The notes beneath the pieces are model-generated. The model ran no database searches and was not told the origin of the DNA. It saw only the letters and a list, made by a program, of their open reading frames with translations. A DNA stretch of 7,842 nucleotides, from the NCBI GenBank assembly GCA_029938505.1, contig JAOZUV010000067.1, positions 1 to 7,842 on the forward strand, written 5' to 3'. Source of the stretch: Bacteroidales bacterium. Lineage in GTDB: Bacteria; Bacteroidota; Bacteroidia; Bacteroidales; GCA-2711565. The first letter of the stretch is position 1; each line of letters starts with the position of its first letter. Shown one piece after another: positions 2-7,842 of the stretch. A program made the position numbers and the translations under genes.

Positions 2-373
2 AAGGTTGAAGAACCTATGATACGTTCTTATGTATTTGTAAAAAGTAGTGAAAAAGAATATTACGATATTTTAAATACAATAGGAGCTGTTCGTTATGTG
101 ACTTTTGAGGGAAAAGCAGCAGCGATACCAGAATGGCAAATCGAAGCAATGAGAAGGATGCTGGATTATAATTTACCACATCAATATTCTGACGAACGAT
201 TTTTTAAAGGTGAGCAAATAAAAATAACAGAAGGTCCTTTAAAGGGACTAGAAGGAGAGGTTGTTGCAAATTCGGAAGGCAAACAAAAAGTAATTATTCG
301 AATTGCAAATATTGGATATTCATTAGTTATTAAAAGTCCATTGGTTTTTGTAAAAAATTTATCAAATAAATGA
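2..373 (+). CDS. UpxY-like NusG-family transcription antiterminator, 3' part (5' end outside window)
   Basis: NusG paralogues of the UpxY type sit first in Bacteroidota capsule operons and let RNA polymerase read through the long locus. The reading frame is open back to base 2, so the ATG at 17 is probably internal: the family motif of a Pro followed by an S/G-Y-V-F-V strand is visible as PMIRSYVFV, with the Pro lying before that ATG. About 123 residues are visible, roughly the last two thirds of a typical family member. After the NGN core comes the 'aIPewqIeamrrmL' segment usual in this family. A KOW motif follows at about visible residues 70-97 (GEQIKITEGPLKGLEGEVV), then a beta-rich tail. 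The gene ends 7 bp before wlbA, so the two are probably co-transcribed. No upxZ-like gene follows. Family call is strong; the exact subfamily and the locus it serves are inferred from position. Confidence 0.85.
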   Translation, partial: KVEEPMIRSYVFVKSSEKEYYDILNTIGAVRYVTFEGKAAAIPEWQIEAMRRMLDYNLPHQYSDERFFKGEQIKITEGPLKGLEGEVVANSEGKQKVIIRIANIGYSLVIKSPLVFVKNLSNK

Positions 374-380
374 AACTACT

Positions 381-1340
381 GTGAAAAAACTCAAATCATC
401 TAAAAACTTTGCCCTCATTGGTGCAGCTGGATATATCGCTCCACGACACATGAAAGCCATTAAAGAAACAGGAAATAATTTACTATCAGCTCTTGATCCT
501 TTTGATAGTGTAGGTATAATCGACAGTTACTTCCCTAAGGCTGATTTTTTTACTGAACCTGAGCGATTTGACAGGCATCTAGATAAAAAAAGAAGAAATG
601 GAGGAGGTAAAATTGACTTTGTAAGTATTTGCTCTCCAAACTATTTACACGATGCTCACATCCGTATGGCCTTAAGAAACGAAGCTCACACCATTTGTGA
701 AAAACCCATCGTATTAAATCCATGGAATATTGATGCTCTTCAGGAAATCGAGAAAGAAAGTGGGAAACGAATATATAATGTACTCCAACTAAGATATCAT
801 CAAAGTATCATCGATTTAAAAAAGAAAATTGATAATGGTCCAAAAGATAAAATTTATGATGTTGATTTAAGTTATATCACATCGCGAGGTCATTGGTATT
901 TTATTTCATGGAAAGGTGATCATGAAAAATCTGGAGGAGTAGCAACAAATATTGGGGTTCATTTTTTCGATATGTTGACCTATATTTTTGGCAAGTGTAG
1001 AATCAACATTATCCATAAACTTGACCCGCACACAAATGCTGGTTTTTTAGAACTTGAAAAAGCAAGAGTCAGGTGGTTTTTGAGTGTTGACGATAAAAAT
1101 CTCCCACAAGAAGCTATCAAAAAAAATCAACGAACGTGTAGATCTATAAGTATTGAAGGAAAAGAAATTGAATTCTCTGATGGATTTACTGATTTACATA
1201 CATTGGTTTACAAAGATATTTTAAATGGGAATGGTTTTTCATTAGAAGATGCCCGCCCAAGTATTGAGCTGGTTCAAAATATCAGAAACTCAAAATCTGT
1301 AGGATTAAAAGGAGATTATCACCCATTTTTAAAAAAATAA
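381..1340 (+). CDS. wlbA: UDP-N-acetyl-2-amino-2-deoxy-glucuronate 3-dehydrogenase (WlbA/WbpB type, Gfo/Idh/MocA family)
   Basis: WlbA/WbpB oxidises C3 of UDP-GlcNAcA to the 3-keto sugar with NAD+, the step before transamination and acetylation to UDP-2,3-diacetamido-uronic acids used in O-antigens and capsules. The 319-residue product has the usual family length. The N-terminal Rossmann segment FALIGAAGYIAPRHMKAIKETGN (residues 10-32, given here as its recognisable start) is highly typical of WlbA. The Gfo/Idh/MocA signature EKP lies at residues 107-109 with catalytic Lys108. The GG...NIGVHFFD helix supplies His194 and Asp197. The best start is GTG at 381: no in-frame ATG occurs upstream after the previous gene, and the next one (450) would remove the dinucleotide-binding loop. 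It lies 7 bp after the antiterminator and 17 bp before tviB. The partner aminotransferase (WbpE/WlbC) and acetyltransferase (WbpD/WlbB) are not in the window. Confidence 0.88.
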   Translation: MKKLKSSKNFALIGAAGYIAPRHMKAIKETGNNLLSALDPFDSVGIIDSYFPKADFFTEPERFDRHLDKKRRNGGGKIDFVSICSPNYLHDAHIRMALRNEAHTICEKPIVLNPWNIDALQEIEKESGKRIYNVLQLRYHQSIIDLKKKIDNGPKDKIYDVDLSYITSRGHWYFISWKGDHEKSGGVATNIGVHFFDMLTYIFGKCRINIIHKLDPHTNAGFLELEKARVRWFLSVDDKNLPQEAIKKNQRTCRSISIEGKEIEFSDGFTDLHTLVYKDILNGNGFSLEDARPSIELVQNIRNSKSVGLKGDYHPFLKK

Positions 1341-1357
1341 ATTTCTAGATTAATAAA

Positions 1358-2659
1358 ATGAATAAAAAAACCAATATCGCAATTATCGGACTCGGATACG
1401 TTGGTCTCCCACTCTCTGTCGAATTTGCGAAAAAATTCTCTGTCATTGGATTTGACATTAAACAAGAGAGGGTTGATGAATTAAATCGGGGTCATGATCC
1501 AACACTGGAAGTTGAAGACAAAAATCTCCAATCCGTTCTAAAAAGCACCCAACAATTAGAAGCTAATAGCGGTTTATATCTAACAACATCAATCGAAGAC
1601 ATTAAACATTCCAATATTTATATTATTGCCGTCCCTACCCCTACTGATAAAAATAATCGTCCAGATTTAACCCCCCTAATTAAATCATCAGAAACAGTGG
1701 CTAAAGTATTAAACGACGGAGACATTGTAATTTACGAATCAACAGTTTACCCCGGTGCAACAGAAGAAGATTGTGTTCCAATTCTAGAAAAAGTCTCCGG
1801 GAAAAAAATAAACAAGCACTTTTTTGTAGGTTATTCTCCCGAACGTATCAATCCTGGAGATAAAATTCATACATTAACTACTATCAAAAAAGTTACCTCA
1901 GGATCTACACCCGAAACAGGAAAGATTGTTGACAATCTATATAAAGAAATTATTACTGCAGGAACCCATCTCGCTACAAGCATAAAAGTTGCTGAAGCAG
2001 CAAAAGTGATTGAAAATTCTCAACGAGATATTAACATTGCTTTTGTAAATGAACTTTCAAAAATTTTTAACCGTATGGGAATTGATACCCTCGAAGTTTT
2101 GGAAGCAGCTGGCACAAAATGGAATTTTTTACCATTTAGACCTGGATTAGTGGGCGGACATTGCATAGGTGTTGATCCTTTTTATTTGGCTCAAAAAGCT
2201 CAAGAAGTGGGTTATCATCCTGAAATTATTTTAGCTGGCCGCCGAGTAAATGATTCTATGGGAGCATATGTAGCAGGAGAGCTTGTTAAACTTATGCTCA
2301 AAGCAGGAAAACTAATAAAAAATGCTAAGGTATTAATGCTGGGAATTACATTTAAAGAAAACTGCCCTGATATCAGAAATACAAGGGCAATAGATATTTA
2401 TAGAGAACTTGAATCCTATGGAGTAAATGTAGACATATTTGACCCCTGGGCGGATATAAATGAAGTTAAAGAAGAGTATAATATTGAGATGTTAGATGTT
2501 TCAATTGATGAGCTTTCAACTGAATACAATGCTATAATATTGGCAGTTTCACATAATGAATTTAAACAAATTGATTTAAAAGCTCATAAAAATAAAAAAA
2601 CCATAATATTTGATGTCAAAGGAATTTTGCCAAAAGAATTTGTAGATGCAAGATTATAA
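1358..2659 (+). CDS. tviB: UDP-N-acetyl-D-glucosamine 6-dehydrogenase (TviB/WbpO type)
   Basis: This enzyme oxidises C6 of a UDP-N-acetylhexosamine twice with NAD+ to the uronic acid, supplying UDP-GlcNAcA for WlbA and for the downstream epimerase. The 433-residue product is full length. The N-terminal Rossmann fold begins with GLGYVG (residues 11-16). The central part carries [14 protein letters not shown] and [10 protein letters not shown] (Glu163). The catalytic cysteine is Cys269 in [11 protein letters not shown]. The C-terminal UDP-binding domain includes [16 protein letters not shown] (about 329-343) and FDPW. The wording of these blocks ([30 protein letters not shown]) fits TviB/VipA and WbpO rather than plain UDP-glucose dehydrogenases or WbpA, so UDP-GlcNAc or UDP-GalNAc is the expected substrate. 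Codon use shifts along the gene: the first ~110 codons are rich in C-ending codons with almost no ATA, while the last ~110 have many ATA and few C-ending codons. Confidence 0.9.
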
Positions 2660-2725
2660 GTAAAACAATATCAACTAATCATGAATACTCTTTCTAATTC
2701 TCAAACTTAATATCATTCACATAAA

Positions 2726-3718
2726 ATGAAAATTTTAGTAACTGGTGGAGCAGGATTTATTGGAAGTAATCTTGTGGAAACATTATTAAGACAAAACAAT
2801 AAAGTTGTTTGTCTAGATAATTTTTCGACTGGTTATTATAAAAATGTAAAACCATTTTTGTCAAATCCAGATTTCACATTAATTGAAGGAGATATTAGAA
2901 TATCCGCAGATTGTGAAAAAGCTATTCAAGGTGTTGATTATGTTTTTCATCAAGCAGCATTAGGGTCAGTTCCAAGATCAATAAAAGATCCTAGCACTAC
3001 AAATGAAGTTAATATACAAGGTTTTCTGAATATGCTGATTGCTTCAAGAGATGCTAATGTAAAACGCTTTGTATATGCTGCCAGTTCATCAACTTATGGC
3101 GACTCTAAAAAACTTCCAAAAACAGAAGAAAACATTGGACGCCCATTAAGTCCTTATGCAGTTACAAAATATGTGAACGAACTTTATGCAGATGTATTTG
3201 CAAGAACATACGAAATGGAATGTATAGGTTTGCGTTATTTTAATGTATTTGGGGAAAATCAGGACCCCAATGGTGCATATGCTGCGGTAATTCCTTTATG
3301 GGTAAAACAATTAATAAATCATGAGTCACCCATTATTAATGGAGATGGAAGCTTTAGCCGAGATTTTACATATATTGAAAATGTAATTCAAGCTAATATT
3401 TTAGCAATGCGAACTTCTTTTGAAAAAATAAGGTCAAAAGAAAAAGATTATACTCATGAGGTATTTAATGTTGCATTTGGAGGAAATACAAATTTGATCA
3501 CACTTTTTAATACTTTAAAAAATAATCTTGCAAACTTCGATTCAGCCATTTCTTTAATTGAACCCATTTTTGGTTCTTTTAGAGATGGAGATATTCCTCA
3601 TTCACAAGCCTCTATTGAAAAAGCCAAAACCCGATTAGGATACAAACCCGATTTTGATGCAATTCAAGGATTCAAATTAGCTTGTGATTGGTATTTTAAT
3701 GAGTTTAATAAAGATTGA
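2726..3718 (+). CDS. tviC: UDP-N-acetylhexosamine(uronic acid) C4-epimerase (TviC/WbpP type, extended SDR)
   Basis: It interconverts UDP-GlcNAc/UDP-GalNAc or, with a TviB partner, UDP-GlcNAcA/UDP-GalNAcA. The NAD-binding start is GGAGFIGSN (residues 7-15). The catalytic set is visible as ASSSTYGD (Ser120/Ser121) and Y144xxxK148 in PYAVTKY, with the spacing seen in Wbp[12 protein letters not shown] (75-85), the long conserved [21 protein letters not shown] block starting at residue 170, and [10 protein letters not shown] (205-214) are hallmarks of the group-3 epimerases that prefer N-acetylated substrates. At 330 residues it lacks only the short N-terminal extension of WbpP. It follows tviB after 66 bp, in which I see no convincing gene. 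Its last two codons and TGA stop lie inside or at the edge of the left repeat of the next cassette, so the very C-terminus may have been reshaped by that insertion. Whether the in vivo substrate is the amino sugar or its uronate cannot be told from sequence. Confidence 0.9.
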
Positions 3719-3730
3719 GGTTGAGATTAA
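3711..3730 (+). repeat. Left arm of imperfect inverted repeat flanking the four-helix-bundle gene
   Basis: The 20 bases AAGATTGAGGTTGAGATTAA match the reverse complement of 4066-4085 at 17 of 20 positions by eye. The first nine (AAGATTGAG) also match the reverse complement of 4059-4067 exactly. The arm overlaps the last codons and stop of tviC. Read with the right arm it bounds a cassette of about 385 bp. Confidence 0.7.
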
Positions 3731-3749
3731 ATATAATGTAATAGCAATT

Positions 3750-4069
3750 ATGTATAAAAGTTTTACAGATATGTCAGTTTGGAAAGAATCATTAAATCTT
3801 TCCGAAAGAATATTTAAACTATCTCTTAGCTTGCCAAAATGCGAAGCATTACCGCTAATATCGCTGAAGCCTTTGGTCGTAGCACATCAAAAGATAAAAA
3901 CAGATTCTATACCATTGCTAAAAGTTCAGCATTTGAAACTCAAAGTCATTTGCTTTATGGACAAAAAGTTAATTATTTTGAGGAAAATAAAGTAAGTGAC
4001 ATATTTCAGTTATATAATCAATTAATATTTGACCTCAATAAAATTATAAAATCCCTTTCTCAATCTTAA
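3750..4069 (+). pseudogene. Four-helix-bundle protein (TIGR02436 / 23S rRNA intervening-sequence-protein type), broken by an internal deletion
   Basis: The frame starting at ATG 3750 reads MYKSFTDMSVWKESLNLSER, then IFKLSLSLPK, which is the first helix of the family (normally 'F.dl.vW..a..l...iy.l...lPk'). At about 3840 the homology jumps to another frame, where RSITANIAEAFGR and helices 3-4 continue to the TAA at 4067-4069 (ending IKSLSQS). The segment usually found between, about 13-14 residues of the 'E-Y-x-L-T-x-Q-I-R-R-S' type, is missing. Restoring frame needs a length of 1 mod 3, such as 40 nt. The bases CGAAG at 3842-3846 could be the product of recombination between two short direct repeats. 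The molecular role of this family is not established; members occur inside rRNA intervening sequences and near diversity-generating retroelements as Avd, but also as lone genes. The downstream part alone (from ATG 3839, 76 aa) could still be made. I judge it a pseudogene. Confidence 0.78.
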
Positions 4070-4173: not shown

Positions 4174-5082
4174 ATGAACAATTATAACTTATCCAATTTA
4201 CGTCAACTCGAAGCCGAATCAATCCACATCATTCGTGAGGTAGCAGCTGAATTTGAAAATCCAGTTATGCTTTACTCCATTGGGAAGGATTCATCAGTTA
4301 TGGTTCGCTTGGCAGAAAAAGCTTTTGCACCAGGCAAAGTACCTTTTCCATTAATGCATATCGATTCAAAATGGAAATTCGGAGAAATGGTTGAATTCCG
4401 CGATAAATATGCTAAAGAAAAAGATTGGGATTTAATTGTTCATTACAATAAAGAAGGATTTGAAACAGGTGTTGGCCCATTTTCTCACGGGAGTAAGGTT
4501 CACACTGATATTATGAAAACTCAGGCCTTATTAGCTGGTTTAGATAAATATGGTTTTGATGCAGCTTTTGGTGGTGCTCGTCGAGATGAAGAAAAATCAA
4601 GAGCCAAAGAACGAATCTATTCTTTCCGCGATCGTTCTCATCAATGGGATCCTAAAAACCAACGCCCCGAATTATGGAATATTTATAATGCCAAAGTTCA
4701 AAAGGGTGAATCTATTAGAGTGTTCCCAATTTCCAACTGGACAGAACTTGATATTTGGCAATATATCCGATTAGAAAACATTCCAATTGTTCCTCTGTAT
4801 TATGCAAAAAAACGCCCAATTGTTGAGTATAATGGTGCAATGGTTTTGGTTGATGATAAGAGAATGCCAAAAGAATTAGCTGAGCAAGCAAAAATGAGGA
4901 TGGTTAGATTCAGGACCTTAGGTTGCTATCCTTTAACTGGAGCTGTAGAATCAGAAGCCGATACCATTGAAAAAATAGTTGAAGAAATGATGACCACGAC
5001 CGTTTCGGAACGTACGACCCGAGTGATTGATTTTGATCAAGAAGGAAGCATGGAGCAGAAAAAGAGAGAAGGGTACTTCTAG
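4174..5082 (+). CDS. cysD: Sulfate adenylyltransferase subunit 2 (ATP sulfurylase, CysD)
   Basis: CysD is the catalytic, ATP-pyrophosphatase-fold subunit of the CysDN ATP sulfurylase and makes APS from ATP and sulfate in the cytoplasm. The 302-residue product equals E. coli CysD in length. The PP-loop appears as [10 protein letters not shown] (residues 34-43). It is followed by [15 protein letters not shown] (133-147), the [10 protein letters not shown] helix (189-198) and [13 protein letters not shown] (247-258), all landmarks of CysD. The ATG at 4174 gives the standard N-terminus ([25 protein letters not shown] starts at residue 6). It has its own promoter and structured leader, and the partner subunit cysN follows after 124 bp. 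In this place, next to uronic-acid sugar genes and a sulfotransferase-like gene, it more likely serves glycan sulfation than cysteine synthesis. That is inference: no cysH, cysI or sulfate permease is present in the window. Confidence 0.95.
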
Positions 5083-5097
5083 ATAAAACAAACAAAT

Positions 5098-5165
5098 TGT
5101 TTACAAATGAGATTTCTCGCTCTCTCGAAATGACAAGTTTGCATTTTACATTAAAAAGTAAACAA
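5098..5165. repeat. 8-bp inverted repeat enclosing the cysD-cysN spacer element
   Basis: TTGTTTAC (5098-5105) and GTAAACAA (5158-5165) are perfect inverted copies with 52 bp between them. The left arm is also part of a second short palindrome, AAACAAATTGTTT (5090-5102). Together they could fold the cysD-cysN spacer into an extended hairpin or mark the ends of a small inserted element. No convincing TAnnTTTG box lies in this spacer, so cysN is probably co-transcribed with cysD. Confidence 0.45.
5109..5135. repeat. REP-like palindromic element (gagatttctcg...cgaaatgac)
   Basis: The core ATTTCTCG-CTCT-CTCGAAAT is an imperfect palindrome flanked by GAG and GAC. From memory, near-identical 25-30 bp units are scattered in intergenic regions of many Bacteroidota genomes. 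Only one copy is present in the window, so its repeat status rests on that recollection. Between cysD and cysN it could influence message stability or the relative expression of the two subunits. Confidence 0.5.
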
Positions 5166-5206
5166 ACTATAAATAAGCACTTATAAAATTCCGAACAAGA
5201 AATAGC

Positions 5207-7126
5207 ATGACAGACACAACCCTCGACATAAAAGAATTCCTTGACCAGGACGAAAAAAAGGATCTACTAAGACTACTAACTGCAGGTTCAGTTGATGACG
5301 GAAAATCAACATTGATTGGGCGTTTATTATTCGATAGCAAAAAATTGTATGATGATCAACTTTCAGCATTAGAGCGCGATAGTAAGCGCATGGGTCATGC
5401 AGGTGAGGATATAGATTATGCTTTATTGTTGGATGGATTAAAAGCTGAACGTGAACAAGGAATTACAATTGACGTAGCCTATAGATATTTCTCAACCAAC
5501 AAACGAAAATTCATCATTGCTGATACACCTGGCCACGAGCAATACACCAGGAACATGGTAACTGGTGCCTCTACTGCTAATTTAGCCATATTGCTGGTTG
5601 ATGCCCGCACAGGCGTAATCACACAAACTAAACGCCATACCTATATTGTTTCCCTTTTGGGAATAAAACATGTGGTAGTTGCCATTAATAAAATGGATTT
5701 GGTAGATTTCAATCAAGAGCGATACGATGAAATTTGTGCTGACTATAAAAACTTTATTACTGGATTAAATATTCCTGATATTAGTTTCATTCCAATTTCT
5801 GCCCTTAAAGGCGATAATGTGGTTGATAAATCTGAACACATGAATTGGTATCATGGAAAATGCATGCTTGAATTTTTGGAAACTGTTCATGTTGGAAGTG
5901 ATCGTAATTTCGAAGATTTACGATTTCCAGTTCAATTTGTAAATCGTCCAGATATAAATTTTAGAGGTTTCTCTACGACACTTGCTTCTGGAGTCATTAA
6001 AAAAGGTGATACAATCAAAGCATTGCCATCTGGGCAAACATCAGTTGTCACAAGCATCCTTGGTTCTGCTGGGGAAATAGAAAAAGCTTTTCCCCCACAA
6101 GCAATTACTATCACTCTCAAGAATGAGATTGATATTTCAAGAGGAGAAATGATTGTTCACCCTGATAATATGCCACGCATTGAACGACATTTCGAAGCAA
6201 TGCTCGTTTGGATGGATGAAAAGGCTATGAATCCTAAAACTCAATTCTATATTAAGCATACTACCAATACAACTAAGGCACGATTCGATCAGATAAAATA
6301 CAAGGTAGATGTGAATACCATGGAAAAGTCTGAGATTGGACATTTAGAGTTGAATGAAATTGGACGAGTTGTTTTGACCACTGTAAAACCATTATTTTTT
6401 GATCCATACAAAACAAACCGAGAAACTGGTTCATTTATCCTCATTGATCCCGTAAGTAATAATACGTGTGCAGTTGGTATGATTATCGACAAATTGCAAG
6501 ACAAAGATTTACATTCTCGCATTACAGATTTAGATAAAGAAAAAATTATCCGAGGTAAGGCTTTAATCAGTACTGAAGAACGAGAAGCAAGAAATAATCA
6601 AAAAGGAGCGACCATTTGGATAACAGGTTTGCATGGATCAGGAAAAAATAATTTGGCCTATATGCTCGAACGCAGATTGTTTGAAATGGGAGCAACAGCT
6701 GTTTTAATGGATGGAAGCACAATAAGATCTGGTCTATCAAAAGAACTCGACTTCTCCCCTGCTGACCGCGCTGAACATCTACGTCGAGTAGCAGAAGTTT
6801 GTAAAGTATTAAATGATCAGGGAATTATTACCATCTGTTCATTTATTTCACCTAAAGAAAATATTCGCCAGCAAGTTTCCAATATCATTGGCAAAGAAAG
6901 ATTCAACGAAATTTATATGAATTCTGATCTTGAATTCTGTAAAAAACACAAACCTAAATTCTATAAAAAAGTAGAAGAAGGAAAACTACTATTTGTTCCA
7001 GGAATTGATGAAGAGTTTGAAAAACCTAAACAAGCTGCATTGACTCTTTGTCCAGAAAACGAAAGCAAAAATATTGAAGATATTATTGATCATTTGAAAA
7101 ACCACAAAATTTTTCCGATAAAATAA
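5207..7126 (+). CDS. cysN: Sulfate adenylyltransferase subunit 1 (CysN GTPase) fused to a degenerate APS-kinase-like domain
   Basis: CysN is the EF-Tu-like GTPase that drives APS synthesis by CysD. The 639-residue product has the length of NodQ/CysNC fusions. The GTPase domain (about 20-230) shows GSVDDGKS (27-34), the switch region [11 protein letters not shown] (85-95), DTPGH (106-110) and NKMD (161-164), all intact. Two beta-barrel domains follow (about 238-320 and 325-430). From about 465 comes a domain that aligns along its length with APS kinase but is eroded. Walker A reads GLHGSGKNN (474-482), with Asn where Ser/Thr-Thr is expected. LDGDNVR has become MDGSTIR (501-507). The KGLY motif is absent (KPKFY), and FTG is VPG. 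Kept are FSPADR (516-521), the following RR (526-527), the FISP motif (546-549) and GID..FEKP. ATP sulfurylase activity is well supported. APS kinase activity is doubtful, so a PAPS kinase may be encoded elsewhere. Confidence 0.92.
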
Positions 7127-7427: not shown

Positions 7428-7842
7428 ATGCATAAAATTCCAGTTAATAACAATAGCAAGCGATTAAATATATTAGTATCAGGATTAGTTTGGAGTGGTT
7501 CATCTGCTATTATTGATTTACTTTCTGAATATGATGGAATTTATTCTTTTCCAATAGAGTTTGATGACTTTAGAAAACCCAATATGATAGGGGATCTATT
7601 AGAAAAAGAATACGATCTAAAAATCCCTTCTAAACTTCCAAGAGGAATTAGTCGAAAATTATACTTAAAGTATTTTTTCTTACCAGATTACATTTCATTT
7701 TTTGTATGTAAAATATTAGGCTGGAATCTTCAGCTGTATAAAGAAAAGAAATTATGGCTAAAATATGTTTATTCTATAATTGAATTAAATAAGTTAATCA
7801 CAGTCGAAAAAGATTATAATAAAAGAATAGCTTATGCAAAAA
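7428..7842 (+). CDS. Sulfotransferase-like P-loop protein, 5' part (3' end outside window)
   Basis: An uninterrupted frame runs from ATG 7428 to the window edge, giving 138 complete codons. After a polar start (MHKIPVNNNSKR) a hydrophobic strand leads into VSGLVWSGSSAIIDLL (residues 17-32), a glycine/serine loop followed by a helix. This resembles the 5'-phosphosulfate-binding loop of PAPS-dependent sulfotransferases (GxxRSGSS/KSGTT types) more than a Walker A motif, because it has no Lys before the Ser pair. The next stretch, EFDDFRKPNMIGDLL, is well formed and looks conserved, but I cannot tie it to a named family. No signal peptide is seen; a Tyr/Phe-rich segment near residues 80-95 may be a buried helix. 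Placement after cysD-cysN supports sulfate transfer to a polysaccharide. The function is a reasoned guess; another P-loop transferase or nucleotide-binding enzyme is possible. Confidence 0.6.
   Translation, partial: MHKIPVNNNSKRLNILVSGLVWSGSSAIIDLLSEYDGIYSFPIEFDDFRKPNMIGDLLEKEYDLKIPSKLPRGISRKLYLKYFFLPDYISFFVCKILGWNLQLYKEKKLWLKYVYSIIELNKLITVEKDYNKRIAYAK

Follow-up and report, generated by a model that had tools for sequence, protein, structure and literature searches.

The excerpts of the literature cited here by PMC number describe two arrangements in which an adenosine 5'-phosphosulfate (APS) kinase domain, or a domain resembling one, is joined to an ATP sulfurylase, and what we take from them holds for those excerpts. 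In Mycobacterium tuberculosis CysNC and in its rhizobial counterpart NodQ, CysN is followed by CysC (PMC4373884, PMC1780047), and the mycobacterial CysC keeps its catalytic machinery (PMC4373884). The fungal ATP sulfurylase, Sat, is unrelated to the bacterial enzyme CysDN (PMC1780047). In Penicillium chrysogenum (PDB 1i2d, 1m8p), it likewise carries a C-terminal APS-kinase-like regulatory domain; 3'-phosphoadenosine 5'-phosphosulfate (PAPS) is reported as an allosteric inhibitor acting on the fungal domain (PMC3779200). The yeast enzyme also ends in an APS-kinase-like domain, with no defined function and again on Sat, not on CysN (PMC3779200). Here, we analysed a window of 7,842 nucleotides from a Bacteroidales bacterium (contig JAOZUV010000067.1), in which cysD is followed by a cysN whose product ends in a degenerate APS-kinase domain. 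This fusion belongs to the same Pfam and NCBIfam families as CysNC, but it has lost the machinery that the mycobacterial kinase keeps; NodQ enters the comparison by domain order alone. The domain is almost certainly dead as an APS kinase, a judgement made from sequence only, and it probably regulates or holds together the CysDN enzyme. Among the open-licence PMC papers listed by literature searches, none describes, by its title or the start of its abstract, a dead APS-kinase domain on CysN.

The original prediction, made from the window sequence, had placed an APS-kinase layout at about residues 465-639 of CysN, and the coordinates agree. Codon 465 starts at nucleotide 6599, and Pfam APS_kinase (PF01583) matches residues 466-613 with 155.7 bits against a cut-off of 21.1. 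By fold and family score, the domain belongs with the APS kinases (CysC, PF01583, TIGR00455). Structures of the mycobacterial CysC place the Mg ligand, the proposed catalytic base, the lysine that contacts the gamma-phosphate and the arginine that stacks on ATP on one side of the site, and the arginines that hold the phosphosulfate on the other (PMC4373884). Where canonical enzymes read G.SG.GK[ST]T, DGD and C..RD.KGLY, the window has GKN, DGS and CKKHKPKFY. The predicted losses of the Walker A Ser/Thr and of the DGD acid are thus borne out. That of KGLY is borne out for the motif, which is broken, but Lys584 remains just before Phe-Tyr and pairs with the lid lysine in a pairwise alignment. 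The motifs FSPADR (516-521), RR (526-527), FISP (546-549) and GID..FEKP (599-607) are present.

To compare these positions across the family, we aligned domains to human PAPSS1. The alignment took in 95 of the 96 degenerate fused domains, leaving out the distant L245, and 91 of the 99 canonical domains, whether fused or free, leaving out eight rows (L090, L237-L243). Canonical domains had been selected for GK[ST] and DGD, and the degenerate set has GK[NKR], so that the difference at Thr66 is true by definition and the canonical Asp89 is fixed by definition. In the degenerate domains, Thr66 is replaced by Asn (92), Arg (2) or Lys (1), and Asp89 is absent from all 95 (Ser in 83, Lys in 9, other residues in 3). 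The other losses are independent of how the sets were chosen: Lys171 of the lid occurs in 91/91 canonical and 0/95 degenerate domains, Gly172 in 91/91 and 9/95, Arg168, also of the lid, in 91/91 and 1/95, the second Walker threonine, Thr67, in 88/91 and 1/95, and the equivalent of Asn109 in 90/91 and 13/95. All 91 canonical lids read KGxY and none of the 95 degenerate ones reads KG[LMIF]Y; the latter align with a one-residue deletion, and a lysine adjoins the LY/FY pair in two of the 95, plus the window.

Other positions are kept. The P-loop lysine, Lys65, is found in 95/95 degenerate domains, as are the equivalents of Arg92 (also in 91/91 canonical) and Arg139; Arg106 is kept in 90, Ser133 and Phe131 each in 92, the first Asp of DGD in 90, and position 101 is Phe, Tyr or His in 94. 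The arginines for the APS phosphosulfate, Arg507 and Arg521 in the window, are therefore retained in 95/95 and 90/95. The PAPS/APS pocket keeps its Arg92, Arg106 and Ser133 equivalents and an aromatic residue at 101, but those of Phe185 and Asn109 are mostly gone. The claim that substrate-side residues are kept holds in part: the four motifs named above are present, but the second Phe that stacks on adenine and the RxxN asparagine are mostly lost. The fungal domain differs here, as its second Asp (LGD), its FTG phenylalanine and its RxxN asparagine are all retained, and it has Ala in place of the Ser of ISP. Furthermore, residues Q465, F492, A496, E513, N536, Q538 and Q556 are conserved only in the degenerate clade, and H476, D515 and P598 are changed and fixed in it; these positions indicate a new constraint.

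The domain is very probably kept for a function. Its retention by selection in the window's lineage, which had been predicted from the intact frame, is shown by conservation and by the ratio of nonsynonymous to synonymous substitution rates (dN/dS, NG86). Across 30 pairs past the saturation filter, which share species and are not independent, dN/dS in the domain is 0.016-0.161 with a median of 0.047, and the median for the GTPase part of the same pairs is 0.024. Three Draconibacterium pairs (L059, L073, L078), from genomes without detected CysC or sulfotransferase of the family Sulfotransfer_3 (PF13469), give 0.016-0.043. The frame is open through the domain in the best 80 of 196 GTDB loci, some frames being cut by contig ends, and identity is about 60% across genera.

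A homologue search with residues 455-639 gave 1609 matches, of which the best 120 were aligned, and all of these have GSGKN. The scan of genome contigs (GTDB loci) gave 196 relatives; GKN is found in 80/80 of the best 80, a biased count, since one of the two patterns used in the scan was GLHGSGKN itself. A plain Pfam family search through 247 genomes of the order found 23 fused CysN-kinase frames, 21 degenerate (18 GKN, 2 GKR, 1 GKK) and two canonical, one of them incomplete; this sample was not chosen by the GKN motif. The degeneracy is more than chance. Among the matches listed for 395 genomes of the phylum, the degenerate form occurs in G001 and G351, and a very eroded domain in G265 and G588. 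From the phylum and the order, 27 distinct canonical fused domains were obtained, with part of the fused frames fetched. Such canonical Bacteroidota fusions (L195, L196, L170) share the fusion and the phylum group with the window protein but have GKST and DGD.

A tree of 96 selected domains unites 29 degenerate ones, among them the window but not L245, in a single clade (support 99/94) with a long stem of 0.53; canonical fusions and free-standing CysC lie outside it. The check proposed with the original prediction, whether GKNN/DGS fusions group together with conserved substrate-site residues, thus came out in favour, the anion residues being present in 90-95 of 95. The simplest reading is that catalysis was lost once before this clade diversified. 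Constraining L245 into the clade gives an approximately unbiased test p of 0.076, so that a single origin of all degenerate fusions, L245 included, is neither rejected nor demonstrated. L245 (4450-6285, GKKT) and L244 (247-2058, GKKE) are CysN fusions with a very eroded kinase domain, and a canonical CysC lies beside L245; this type of erosion is perhaps a second, independent loss.

The window's lineage keeps the domain, but a related lineage has shrunk or lost it. A CysN search of the 247 genomes listed 39 in which most of the window GTPase part is matched at 68% identity or more (a partial one, G063, is uncounted): 21 are full-length, one is frameshifted (G707) and 17 are shortened. In L325 (G706) GKN is kept and Arg507, Arg526 and Arg527 are gone. 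In nine distinct remnants (L323, L324, L328-L334) neither P-loop, APS loop nor lid is intact; read by eye, an ERxL..xG helix is found in 9/9 and a QG strand entry in 8/9. Further shortened CysN finish with a tail some 50 residues long. The GTPase tree places 15 of the 17 shortened genomes, together with the GKR pair L317/L318, in one clade (22 rows, some of them duplicates; support 99), and L339/L340 form a second reduction. The dN/dS is 0.118-0.135 for three pairs of remnants and 0.030 for the GKR pair. A canonical cysC is found at the same locus in 11 of 14 shortened cases examined (12 with a longer frame in G116), and in 7 of 45 full-length loci having at least 4 kb upstream; this contrast comes mainly from one clade and is not an independent test. 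As the domain has been reduced in this lineage to short tails or to cores that lack a ligand site, part of its role may be structural.

On the question whether the domain still makes PAPS, we surveyed 70 genomes with this CysN (20, and 50 of the other 60), with Sulfotransfer_3 over its cut-off as the only sulfotransferase family tried; the completeness of the metagenome-assembled genomes (MAGs) is not given. A search for a separate intact cysC had been proposed for the genome of the window; run on these relatives, it found a whole canonical kinase in 23, all with GK[S/T], DGD and RDxKGxY, and none in 47. Sulfotransfer_3 is found in 24 genomes, 20 of the 23 with a separate kinase and 4 of the 47 without (Fisher p 9e-11). 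Both are thus present in 20, the kinase only in 3, the sulfotransferase only in 4 and neither in 43; if canonical CysC fragments in G666 and G678 are counted, the figures become 20, 5, 4 and 41 (p 2e-9). With control for the CysN tree, 12 independent pairs remain, 8.7 going the same way and 0.5 the opposite way (median p 0.008, range 0.004-0.07). As a control, where CysN carries a canonical CysC, outside the degenerate clade, Sulfotransfer_3 is found in 18 of 25 genomes (p 5e-8 against the 4/47, without tree control; a second kinase-like match occurs in a few of the 25). Sulfotransferases thus go with a fused kinase that has its catalytic residues, and mostly not with the degenerate domain alone. 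Neither kinase nor Sulfotransfer_3 was detected in nine isolates: D. orientale, D. mangrovi, three Maribellus, Mangrovibacterium marinum, Mariniphaga anaerophila, Sunxiuqinia indica and S. dokdonensis. The Draconibacterium orientale genome, where a separate APS kinase and Sulfotransfer_3 were both sought and not found, is complete. Three isolates have both (M. lignilyticum, S. elliptica and Tangfeifania). In G679, a 582-residue frame (C210:3601-4971, L363) combines Sulfotransfer_3 with an APS-kinase match that has canonical residues, a sulfotransferase-CysC fusion.

CysH was typed in 18 of 20 genomes, and in all 18 it has the motifs CC..RK, S.GC..CT and ECGLH of the Fe-S APS-reductase kind; in G013 and G015, matches other than CysD are weak. 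APS is therefore what the reductive branch uses. No PAPS maker and no tested PAPS user is seen in 43 (or 41) of the 70 genomes, which makes PAPS sensing unlikely as a general role. CysDN itself produces APS, and the ATP sulfurylases of yeast, fungi and humans are subject to product inhibition by it (PMC3734648). If the domain has a ligand, APS is likelier than PAPS.

The explanation we favour, tentatively and at somewhat less than even odds, is that of a kept pseudokinase acting as an APS-holding regulator with a partly structural role. Phosphotransfer would have been lost in an ancestor within Bacteroidota and the APS-kinase domain then kept on CysN. The catalytic losses, together with sulfotransferases that mostly accompany a separate canonical CysC, suggest that the domain no longer makes PAPS, and conservation and dN/dS show that selection keeps it in the window's lineage. 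It would most likely still hold APS, the P-loop perhaps being occupied by a nucleotide, and the APS-loaded domain might restrain or steady CysDN, a product feedback like that of fungal ATP sulfurylase with APS in place of PAPS. A share of the role, carried by the first helix and the beta core, would be structural, as the related lineage keeps mainly that core. The kept anion site favours a ligand-linked role and the remnants favour the structural share; regulation through APS binding, taken by itself, is likewise put at somewhat less than even odds.

Several observations weigh against it. With the Phe185 equivalent in only 3/95 degenerate domains and that of Asn109 in 13/95, APS affinity may be low. 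The domain was shrunk or lost in the 17 of 39 genomes above, and the frameshift in G707 (L308), just after GLHG on one MAG contig, is decay or an assembly error. CysH of the APS-reductase kind also stands beside canonical fusions, at no fewer than nine loci, and so permits the loss of the kinase without forcing it. Sulfotransfer_3 occurs without detected CysC in G012 (a weak match), G667, G692 and G695, and CysC occurs without Sulfotransfer_3 over its cut-off in G014, G663 and G665. Finally, the full-length AlphaFold model is poor (predicted local distance difference test 71.5, predicted template modelling score 0.42), and the packing of the domain is not readable from it.

Among the rivals, a purely structural scaffold, in which a dead dimerising domain keeps CysDN dimeric, stable or correctly assembled without any ligand, is the strongest, though we think it unlikely. 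It accounts for the nine remnants that keep the helix and strand entry without a ligand site, and it is in keeping with the mycobacterial CysC, where most of the dimer contact comes from helices alpha2 and alpha3 (PMC4373884), and with the high conservation of helix 518-537, assumed to be one of these. Alone, it does not explain why full-length copies conserve the P-loop lysine and the Arg92, Arg106 and Ser133 equivalents, and the remnant dN/dS is about 2.5-3 times the full-length median. The original prediction of a PAPS or APS sensor, on the fungal model, holds in that the domain is dead and kept; PAPS as the signal is weakened. A PAPS sensor, in which PAPS from elsewhere binds the domain and inhibits CysDN, is improbable: the domain is kept in the 47 genomes where no other whole APS kinase was found, 43 of them also without Sulfotransfer_3, CysH uses APS, and the ligand site is lost where cysC mostly adjoins cysDN, the reverse of what such a sensor predicts. 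Inhibition of the fungal kind is hence unlikely in most genomes with a degenerate CysN domain.

Equally improbable is a docking platform, in which the dead domain pairs with CysH, or with CysC as a mixed dimer, and passes on APS. APS kinases do dimerise and the clade has its own conserved positions, but there is no constant partner besides CysD and CysN: genomes have CysH without CysC, both, or CysC with nothing but weak PF01507 matches apart from CysD (G015). We give very little credence to the reading that the domain still acts as a kinase, whether on APS with a changed chemistry or on some other substrate. The retained P-loop lysine and first Asp of DGD, the lysine near the lid position in the window copy and the four genomes with Sulfotransfer_3 and no detected CysC speak for it, but the Mg ligand, the base and both lid residues are gone together, sulfotransferases track a separate CysC, and all four exceptional genomes are MAGs whose completeness is not given, the match in one of them being weak. 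That a useless tail is decaying neutrally is just as hard to credit: the shrunken and lost forms and the frameshifted copy would fit it, but the open frames, the identity across genera, dN/dS near 0.05 and the clade-specific fixed residues do not.

The favoured APS-holding pseudokinase parallels fungal ATP sulfurylase well in anatomy, and the functional parallel is putative. If the domain regulates CysDN, an enzyme has turned sensor convergently in the same pathway. The fuller account is more speculative still: that Bacteroidota, independently of fungi and on an unrelated sulfurylase driven by a GTPase, evolved a regulatory pseudo-APS-kinase that reads APS, which would suit a pathway reducing APS directly, and dismantled it stepwise to a structural core where cysC joined the operon. 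Forms found in nature, from full length through GKR/GKK, a lost substrate site and the bare core to the bare tail, make the steps testable, and a clean genetic system is offered by species in which the pseudokinase is present and a further APS kinase was not detected. NCBIfam names the window protein, above curated cut-offs, a bifunctional sulfate adenylyltransferase/adenylylsulfate kinase, and owing to this name PAPS synthesis is likely mispredicted for these Bacteroidota.

The APS-making half looks sound, since CysD (with both SIGKDS and GARRDEE) and the GTPase of CysN keep their motifs. By its EF-like GTPase, its scores (NF004035, 885.3 bits against a cut-off of 715; TIGR02034, 615.5 against 336.1) and the adjoining cysD, the fusion is a CysN/CysNC subunit of CysDN ATP sulfurylase. 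The features are collected in Table 1.

Table 1 Features of the window and small open reading frames (ORFs) at related loci.
Feature	Position	Strand	Basis or remark
cysD, sulfate adenylyltransferase small subunit, 302 aa	4174..5082	+	ORF; NCBIfam TIGR02039 503.1 bits
cysN fusion, 639 aa, unbroken frame	5207-7126	+	ORF
cysN GTPase and beta-barrel part, aa 1-464	5207..6598	+	Pfam GTP_EFTU, GTP-eEF1A_C; TIGR02034
cysN GTPase motifs, intact	within 5207..6598	+	motif reading
C-terminal degenerate APS-kinase domain, aa 465-639 and stop, 175 residues	6599..7126	+	
Degenerate P-loop GLHGSGKN, aa 474-481	6626..6649	+	Asn481 where Mg-binding Ser/Thr expected
DGS for DGD, aa 502-504	6710..6718	+	Ser504; proposed catalytic base gone
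Arg507, kept	6725..6727	+	equivalent to hPAPSS1 Arg92 / M. tuberculosis CysC Arg483; APS phosphosulfate contact
Segment aa 516-527	6752..6787	+	Phe516 aromatic, Arg521 kept; His524 at Asn109 equivalent
Lid CKKHKPKFY, aa 578-586	6938..6964	+	ATP-stacking Arg gone, RDxKGLY broken, one residue deleted
Small ORFs of one cluster	L001:8126-8476; L002:8176-8553; L011:8037-8444; L066:4623-4994		

The cysD-cysN pair lies in a capsule-type locus (window 2-3718 and 4174-7126). By Pfam and NCBIfam, its genes encode the end of an UpxY antiterminator, a Gfo/Idh oxidoreductase, a TviB-like dehydrogenase and a TviC-like epimerase. Similar genes are found near this CysN in 19/80 (Gfo/Idh), 17/80 (UpxY) and 17/80 (epimerase) loci, in clusters named from sequence. 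Downstream, an ORF cut by the end of the window (7428-7841) was considered by eye as the start of a sulfotransferase, and no claim is made for it: Pfam at E up to 10 gave one weak unrelated match, NCBIfam gave nothing, and nothing was found in the protein database (candidates limited by length) or in 198 genomes (no positive control).

Free-standing APS-kinase paralogues of about 250 residues (L198:2147-2887, L251:1681-2460 and L226:92-841) have GKSE or GKRE and DGH or no DGD; two adjoin a canonical CysC and the third a canonical CysN-CysC fusion, and they are possibly another degenerate or repurposed branch. The small ORFs listed in Table 1 belong to a cluster found in 18/80 loci, some copies lying between cysD and cysN, and resemble four-helix-bundle proteins. 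The window ORF 3684-3995 is perhaps similar to them, by eye.
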